A stretch of DNA of 64,000 nucleotides from Balneola sp. (lineage in GTDB: Bacteria > Bacteroidota > Rhodothermia > Balneolales > Balneolaceae): contig RHLJ01000004.1 of the NCBI GenBank assembly GCA_003712055.1, positions 248,001-312,000 of the forward strand. The letters run 5' to 3'. The position numbers and the translations under genes are program-made. The notes beneath the pieces are model-generated. The model ran no database searches. It was not told where the DNA came from and saw only the letters and a program-made list of their open reading frames with translations. Below are positions 18,747-57,316 of this stretch, piece by piece (positions within the stretch are counted from its first letter, which is position 1; every line of letters begins with the position of its first letter).

Positions 18747-18853
18747 GTCATGCTGAACTCGTTTCAGCATCTTTGTGGAGACCATAAGGCAATTACAGAG
18801 TAAATAATTAATCAACGCCTTTTCATAAGATCCCGAAACAAGTTCGGGATGAC
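18747..18853. repeat. GTCA-type palindromic repeat pair (locus A)
   Basis: The left unit starts GTCATGCTGAA and forms an 8-bp stem (ATGCTGAA/TTCAGCAT, 18750-18770). The right unit forms ATCCCGAA/TTCGGGAT (18830-18850) and ends in GAC. The two are head-to-head with GTCA/TGAC at the outer ends, the architecture also seen at 43532. It fills the gap between ggt and the His-rich gene. Confidence 0.8.
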
Positions 18854-37579: not shown

Positions 37580-37631
37580 GTCATTCCTCGGCGAAGGCCG
37601 GAATCTAGATTCCCGTATTCACGGGAATGAC
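37580..37631. repeat. GTCA-type palindromic repeat pair sharing TCTAGA (locus B2)
   Basis: The left unit begins GTCATTCC with a GAAG loop, and the right unit ends CACGGGAATGAC. The two are head-to-head and meet at AATCTAGATT (37602-37611). Outer ends are GTCA and TGAC. It belongs with the units that bracket the GIY-YIG gene. Confidence 0.8.
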
Positions 37632-43531: not shown

Positions 43532-43597
43532 GTCATTCTGAACTTGTTTCAGAATCTTTCGTGCTGTACAAAGACCCTGAACCTGTTTCAGGGTGAC
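43532..43597. repeat. GTCA-type palindromic repeat pair (locus C)
   Basis: The left unit, GTCATTCTGAA with its TTCAGAAT partner (stem 43535-43555), faces a right unit ACCCTGAA/TTCAGGGT (43574-43594) that ends in GAC. Outer ends are GTCA and TGAC. Loops are the CTTGT/CCTGT type seen at locus A. It fills the gap between the COG1579 gene and rnpB. Confidence 0.8.
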
Positions 43598-56853: not shown

Positions 56854-56902
56854 GTCAGTCCACGAATATAGAAATCTAGACCCCTGCCTTCGCAGGGGTG
56901 AC
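56854..56902. repeat. GTCA-type palindromic repeat, left of the GIY-YIG gene (locus D1)
   Basis: The clear half is TCTAGA-ACCCCTGC/GCAGGGGT-GAC: a perfect 8-bp stem with loop CTTC (56880-56899), ending in TGAC at 56902. To its left a decayed forward unit starts GTCAGTCC at 56854, so the whole again runs GTCA to TGAC with TCTAGA (56875-56880) in the middle. Confidence 0.75.
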
Positions 56903-56960
56903 AATTTAAACGAGGGCTAAGGAACAAAAAGTTGTAAGGAATACTGAGCCTAAGGGTCTT

Positions 56961-57275
56961 ATGATTATGAAAGAAGGCTTTGTATACATACTGCCAAACG
57001 TCCAAAGAACCGTTCTCTATACCGGTGTTACCAGTGATTTAGTAAATAGGGTTTATAACCATAAACAGGGGAATGGTTCGGTTTTTACATCAAAGTACAA
57101 TGCTTATTTACTTTTGTATTATGAAATACATCAAGATATGTACCAAGCAATAGTTAGAGAGAAGCAAATCAAAAAGTGGAAGCGAGAGTGGAAATTTAAC
57201 TTGATTAAGTCTGGTAATCCTGAACTAAAGGATCTATGGGGTGAAATACTCCCTGAAGGAAGATTCCATTTTTAG
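56961..57275 (+). CDS. GIY-YIG nuclease-like protein bracketed by palindromic repeats
   Basis: A 104-residue stand-alone GIY-YIG domain of the UPF0213/YhbQ type. The GIY half is GFVYILPN, the YIG half is LYTGVTSDL, the catalytic Arg and nearby His are in VNRVYNHK, and the metal-binding Glu is in AIVREKQIKKW; KSGNPELKDLW closes the fold. An in-frame ATG at 56967 may be the true start. The stop is only 11 bases from the right-hand palindrome, and the left palindrome ends 58 bases before the start, in opposite orientation. This tight packing suggests the gene and repeats form one element. DNA cleavage is likely; the target is unknown. Confidence 0.88.
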   Translation: MIMKEGFVYILPNVQRTVLYTGVTSDLVNRVYNHKQGNGSVFTSKYNAYLLLYYEIHQDMYQAIVREKQIKKWKREWKFNLIKSGNPELKDLWGEILPEGRFHF

Positions 57276-57286
57276 TTTTCTTTTAA

Positions 57287-57316
57287 GTCATTCCCGCGAA
57301 GGCGGGAATCTAGATC
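57287..57316 (+). repeat. GTCA-type palindromic repeat unit, right of the GIY-YIG gene (locus D2)
   Basis: GTCATTCCCGC-GAAG-GCGGGAATCTAGATC: a perfect 8-bp stem ATTCCCGC/GCGGGAAT (57290-57309) with loop GAAG, GTCA at the left and TCTAGA (57309-57314) at the right. It is the intact form of the unit and faces the opposite way to the left copy at 56875. Confidence 0.85.

Follow-up and report, generated by a model that had tools for sequence, protein, structure and literature searches.

What does a small GIY-YIG nuclease have to do with the short palindromes that stand on either side of its gene? A locus in a Balneola sp. genome raises this question, and the answer bears on a wider problem. The palindromes are CGTC-tagged REPs, a class of repeats that "apparently lack a dedicated transposase" and that were not found to flank any tyrosine transposase (Di Nocera et al. 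2013, BMC Genomics 14:522, PMC3733652). For GTAG REPs the partner enzyme is known: RAYTs were linked to these repeats by inverted flanking REPs, by co-evolution and by an abundance that tracks the gene (PMC2817692), and the idea of the REPIN has been built on such repeats (PMC3116915).

The window, by which we mean the whole 64,000-nucleotide stretch of DNA that was analysed, carries the GIY-YIG gene at 56961..57275 on the + strand. The gene encodes a single-domain protein of 104 aa (PF01541, E=5e-15) and lies between intact host genes, with what we take to be rpmH (together with rnpA and yidC) on one side and secA on the other; it has no intron, intein or modular DNA-binding tail. To its left is a CGTC-type REP unit of type A (GTCACCCCTGCGAAGGCAGGGGTCTAGA; 56875..56902, - strand) whose GTCA end points toward the gene, and to its right a second type A unit, also a hairpin (GTCATTCCCGCGAAGGCGGGAATCTAGA; 57287..57314, + strand), follows the stop codon at a distance of 11 bases. 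The entire candidate element, unit-gene-unit, spans 56875..57314 (+). Both units are 28 bases long and form an 8-bp hairpin with a GAAG loop and an unpaired GTC in front (z about -4). A T precedes the GTC of the left unit, TGTC being a known variant, and its stem begins A-C; in the right unit the preceding base is A.

CGTC REPs as described in 2013 have a (C)GTC tag, an 8-9 bp stem beginning AT, a short loop and a CCA-like tail, form inverted dimers and occur in several phyla. The repeats analysed here are alike, with an unpaired (C)GTC tag, a stem of 8-9 bp, a loop of 4-5 nt (8 bp and GAAG in the window), a tail that fits CCA (CCAG, CTCA or CTAG), many copies and inverted dimers; they are CGTC-tagged REPs. 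A strict scanner for such units (GTC followed by AYNNN, a loop, the perfect reverse complement and C) finds nine in the window, compared with 1.55 in shuffled sequence. Eight of the nine form four inverted pairs, namely the nuclease pair and three gene-less doublets: a type B pair with GTCA outward at 18747+/18853- (GTCATGCTGAACTCGTTTCAGCATC ... GTCATCCCGAACTTGTTTCGGGATC), a type A pair at 37580+/37631- in which one TCTAGA is common to both units, and a further type B pair at 43532+/43597-. The ninth unit (59667, within secA) is probably a chance match. Genome-wide, the window-unit pattern has 27 copies, four of which flank the two closest paralogues, and the reversed control has none.

A first-pass annotation, made from the sequence alone, had described a 104-residue gene between oppositely oriented palindromes with its stop 11 bases from the right copy, and the same palindromes as pairs in at least three other gaps of the window without a nuclease; both statements held, the former with exact coordinates. 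Its description of the gene as boxed in by outward-facing repeats needs correction. At the window nuclease GTCA faces inward and TCTAGA outward, the opposite of the three gene-less pairs, where GTCA faces outward. This is also the minority arrangement among nucleases with units on both sides (n=97), where GTCA is outward in 59 and inward in 14, the commonest order being + unit, gene, - unit. The proposal that TCTAGA is a conserved junction and a site of cleavage or joining failed, since TCTAGA is the end of the stem (AT) plus a tail that varies (CCAG, CTCA, CTAG and others), and the constant part of the unit is GTCA...RTC.

The source genome contains seven small GIY-YIG genes, and all seven are flanked by GTCA-tagged palindromes. 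Three palindrome types are present and are sorted by nuclease clade. Type A (GTCAYYCCYGCGAAGGCRGGRRTCTA) stands at two nucleases, the window gene and a sister 75% identical to it; type B (GTCATCCYGAACTTGTTTCRGGATCTT) is found at three paralogues; and a GA type with tandem G-A mismatches, and hence a mismatched stem, together with a longer loop (GTCATCCTGAG...CGAAGGATCT) is found at the remaining two. The three unit types have 27, 54 and 83 copies genome-wide, and their reversed-pattern controls have zero. Between the B-type paralogues L007 and L009, homology runs from GTCA to TGAC and the sequence outside is unrelated. At L007 (G000:C2, near 323500-324300), about 36 bp of the end of the upstream gene (TGCACCCTGGACCCCAGGAAGGATTATAGACCTGGA) recur downstream of the GIY-YIG element, a repeat that may be a duplication linked to insertion.

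Nine columns are invariant across 83 sequences of the protein (Y9, Y20, G22, R30, H34, E67, K71, K78 and N86 in window numbering). Among them are catalytic-type residues (Y9, Y20, G22, R30, H34, E67 and N86), including those expected of an active GIY-YIG nuclease; activity itself is inferred, as there are no biochemical data. The AlphaFold2 model (mean pLDDT 91) is closest to UPF0213, followed by Slx1 and UvrC. Slx1 cuts branched DNA, and the likeness fits a hairpin or cruciform as the putative substrate. NCBIfam yielded no family, close relatives were absent from phage records, and a search of Rfam gave no match near the gathering score.

To see how far the pairing of gene and repeat extends, we examined 80 loci in named genomes from many phyla, chosen by protein similarity to the window family. 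The first loci had already been inspected when the strict unit definition was refined. A perfect-stem scanner misses the types with tandem G-A mismatches and makes lower-scoring nucleases seem unflanked, and an outer-stem scanner was therefore used for the 80-locus count. Strict units lie within ~200 bp on both sides of 54/80 nucleases and on at least one side of 75/80, compared with both-side flanking of 3/508 control ORFs at the same loci and 1/142 small ORFs. When GTC was replaced by each of the 63 other trinucleotide tags, at most 1/80 nucleases appeared flanked. With a looser scanner, unit density is 5.7/kb within 200 bp of a nuclease and 0.23/kb beyond 2 kb, and scrambled tags give no density peak near nucleases. 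The association is tight and specific.

It is also broad. The three main unit types adjoin nucleases in 18 phyla, and a cyanobacterial plasmid copy (L265) raises this to at least 19. Units are densely packed around a GIY-YIG gene of Neisseria gonorrhoeae, and two species of the 2013 survey, Azospirillum lipoferum and Novosphingobium aromaticivorans, both have flanked GIY-YIG copies; those of N. aromaticivorans carry a GTCG variant, which the scanner did not pick up. Tandem arrays of the form unit-gene-unit-gene-unit also occur (L207). Some individual settings deserve record. On Planktothrix agardhii plasmid p1 (L265) the GIY-YIG gene and its repeats have a type IIL restriction-modification enzyme on one side and a DISARM helicase gene on the other, and on a plasmid of Azospirillum lipoferum 4B (L263) an element stands between sufB and sufC, apparently within an iron-sulphur assembly operon. 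Genome G074 has two equal-scoring GIY-YIG genes 6.4 kb apart (contig C1, near 206023 and 212474) with several units around each, which probably reflects a recent duplication.

Nuclease and palindrome match by clade. The tree of 130 nucleases requires 11 changes of palindrome type, compared with 55.8 after shuffling (0/200 shuffles were as low), and within the window's phylum alone the figures are 6 and 21.9 (minimum 15 in 300 shuffles). Many forks of the 130-nuclease tree are unresolved because the protein is short.

Repeat number also co-varies with the gene. We counted three unit patterns, excluding other types, in 148 genomes of the window's phylum alone, which are not phylogenetically independent. 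The nuclease was found in 84/148, with up to 15 copies per genome. The 84 gene-positive genomes hold 1644 of the counted units and the 64 gene-negative genomes 101, so that 94% fall in gene-positive genomes; 20 or more units were present in 27 gene-positive genomes and in no gene-negative one (p=3e-8). The rank correlation between units and nuclease number is 0.62, and remains 0.50 after removal of the Y1_Tnp count. There are exceptions. Eight of the 64 gene-negative genomes carry 5-18 units, and a search of these eight at E 0.01 found no gene in seven and a weak match in one (G017); conversely, 20/84 gene-positive genomes lack all three counted types, other types being uncounted, and the link between gene and units is weak in the large family f16. 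Genome G043, with no detectable GIY-YIG gene, has short tandem arrays of type B units on contig C1 near 625600 and 892180.

These counts bear on the checks that the first-pass annotation had set out. Within the genome every GIY-YIG paralogue proved to be flanked, flanking of relatives held in many phyla, and the tracking of gene presence by repeat number held with the exceptions just given. The REPIN-like logic with a GIY-YIG enzyme that it proposed is supported by flanking, matching and abundance; that the nuclease moves or maintains the repeats is still inference.

If the unit-gene-unit block is mobile, copies that lack the gene and sites that lack the block are of particular interest, and both exist. 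A relative in the window's phylum (G025) and its congener (G021) contain gene-less doublets of ~86-102 bp that consist of both element ends with the gene missing. Ten of 15 such doublets match both ends of a gene-bearing element, a result equalled in 0/300 shuffles. In the source genome a clear end match was seen in only 2/11 doublets tested against one B element. The G025 and G021 doublets (L236-L250) have a further 8-10 bp in common outside GTCA (ACA[AG]T[CT]TT / AAGATTGTG), and therefore the element or its preferred target reaches past the tag in that subfamily.

At orthologous sites the block is present in some genomes and absent from others. In one genome of the same genus (G148) only 48 bp separate the rpmH and secA sides in the alignment, which leaves no room for the window element; in another (G135) the L008 site is shorter by ~560 bp, and a short gene-less pair occupies the L010 site. 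On Sphingobium plasmids, some strains have a unit-GIY-unit block between fnrL and a response regulator, strains TomTYG64 (L257) and TomTYG74 (L256) have a single palindrome there without a gene, and TomTYG72 and TomTYG65 have neither gene nor palindrome. Sinorhizobium C101 (L260) likewise has a gene-less site with a solo palindrome where its relatives have unit-gene-unit. The solo palindromes at these three loci are of a rare symmetric form, GTCA...TGAC, as if the outer arms of both units had been joined; asymmetric units outnumber symmetric ones 469 to 6. The symmetric palindrome could be the target or it could be a deletion scar, and we cannot decide between the two. No clean target-site duplication was found at the elements examined.

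How does this arrangement compare with known systems? As in REPIN/RAYT systems (GTAG REPs; Nunvar 2010, Bertels and Rainey 2011), a gene stands between two inverted REPs and gene-less doublets are dispersed. Enzyme-REP co-evolution and abundance that tracks the gene are both met here, the latter with exceptions, whereas the constant flanking of the enzyme in those systems is here a strong tendency and not a rule. The enzyme of REPIN/RAYT systems is an HUH/Y1 tyrosine transposase; here it is a PF01541 GIY-YIG protein, the tag is GTCA instead of GTAG, and the chemistry must differ. Lacking a tyrosine transposase, the present system is therefore not a member of the REPIN/RAYT group and only works like one. 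The 2013 work on CGTC REPs named no enzyme; the present data tie a GIY-YIG nuclease to them and show further palindrome types and phyla. Free-standing GIY-YIG homing endonucleases of the I-TevI kind belong to the same catalytic superfamily and have the same conserved Y, Y-x-G, R, E and N, and selfish spread of the nuclease gene through DNA breaks, as in those enzymes, is plausible here. Unlike them, the present elements have no intron or intein and no DNA-binding tail domain, their partner is a dispersed short palindrome, and they have gene-less derivatives. UPF0213/YhbQ and Slx1/UvrC are alike in fold and catalytic residues but are repair-type or uncharacterised genes. A search of the open-access literature, which left out preprints and subscription papers, found nothing that connects GIY-YIG proteins to REPs or to CGTC repeats, and priority is uncertain.

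We consider it likely that these loci form a minimal mobile system, like that of REPINs, in which a GIY-YIG nuclease takes the place of a tyrosine transposase, with cutting and moving of the repeats by that enzyme as inferred parts of the model. On this reading the window locus would be one mobile copy, two inverted CGTC-tagged REP hairpins around one small GIY-YIG gene. The nuclease would recognise its cognate REP, by the constant GTCA tag and the clade-specific stem-loop, when the repeat is folded into a hairpin or cruciform, for which single-stranded DNA of the lagging strand is the most likely setting. It would nick or cut the REP, leaving it to host replication and repair to copy the bounded segment or to move it. 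Elements that have lost the gene and kept both ends, the REP doublets, would be spread in trans as non-autonomous copies, much as RAYTs drive REPINs. Recognition, cleavage, mobilisation and the form of the DNA are all inferred, as there are no biochemical data and no data on movement in vivo. To our knowledge GIY-YIG nucleases do not act as transposases, and strand joining would therefore need host functions.

The main rival is homing. In this explanation the REPs are pre-existing targets that a free-standing GIY-YIG homing endonuclease cuts and into which its gene is copied by repair; the gene thereby comes to be flanked by REP sequence, and the spread of the REPs has some other cause. A homing gene interrupts its own recognition site, the empty allele being the intact target; among the empty sites seen here, some have a solo palindrome and others have none. 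GIY-YIG domains are classical homing nucleases, and the solo symmetric GTCA...TGAC palindromes at gene-less sites of TomTYG64, TomTYG74 and Sinorhizobium C101 are in its favour; because of these solo palindromes at some empty sites, the rival is left open. Several observations speak against it. The units on either side of the gene are whole and not half sites, the ends of gene-less doublets are those of the element itself, symmetric targets are rare because nearly every unit is asymmetric, repeat number goes with the gene, and TomTYG72 and TomTYG65 have neither gene nor palindrome at the orthologous site. We regard homing as unlikely.

Less probable still is that a Y1/HUH transposase such as a RAYT, or some other transposase, moves the REPs, with the GIY-YIG gene merely carried along as a passenger between two of them. 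Y1_Tnp genes are frequent, being present in 106/148 genomes of the phylum, and genomes with more of them tend to hold more units (correlation 0.44), but the correlation falls to 0.14 once GIY-YIG number is removed. None of 20 Y1_Tnp genes in unit-rich genomes is flanked by units, the 2013 survey found no CGTC-flanked tyrosine transposase, and palindrome type would hardly be expected to follow the tree of a mere passenger. An equally remote possibility is a housekeeping role without mobility, in which the nuclease processes REP hairpins or cruciforms to protect replication and its flanks are its own regulatory or processing sites. The closest folds do include the DNA-repair nucleases Slx1 and UvrC, the former acting on branched DNA, and unit type does match nuclease clade. 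However, gene and flanks are missing as a block at orthologous sites, the gene is multicopy and occurs in tandem unit-gene-unit arrays, and a housekeeping gene would not need to turn up at one new position after another with a REP on either side. Coincidence, in which REPs gather between genes and a small gap gene acquires them as neighbours, finds support in the mostly extragenic location of REPs (PMC3733652) but is all but excluded by the scarcity of both-side flanking among control and small ORFs relative to nucleases and by the matching of clade and palindrome.

The preferred reading thus remains the REPIN-like mobile system, and no better candidate than the GIY-YIG enzyme has yet emerged for the unknown machinery of CGTC REPs. 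A bolder version, towards which the balance tips only slightly, holds that all of the CGTC REP superfamily depends on GIY-YIG nucleases as its dedicated mobilising enzymes; the superfamily would then comprise ancient hairpin-ended elements of ~350-450 bp in at least 19 phyla, with gene-less doublets moved in trans by a chemistry not known from any bacterial transposon. CGTC REPs are widespread short bacterial repeats, and the question of what makes and spreads them has stood open since 2013; a specific, small and catalytically intact-looking candidate enzyme makes that question directly testable at the bench. If the proposal is true, systems of REP plus enzyme have at least two origins, with unrelated chemistry, and a mobile element can have a GIY-YIG nuclease as its sole enzyme.
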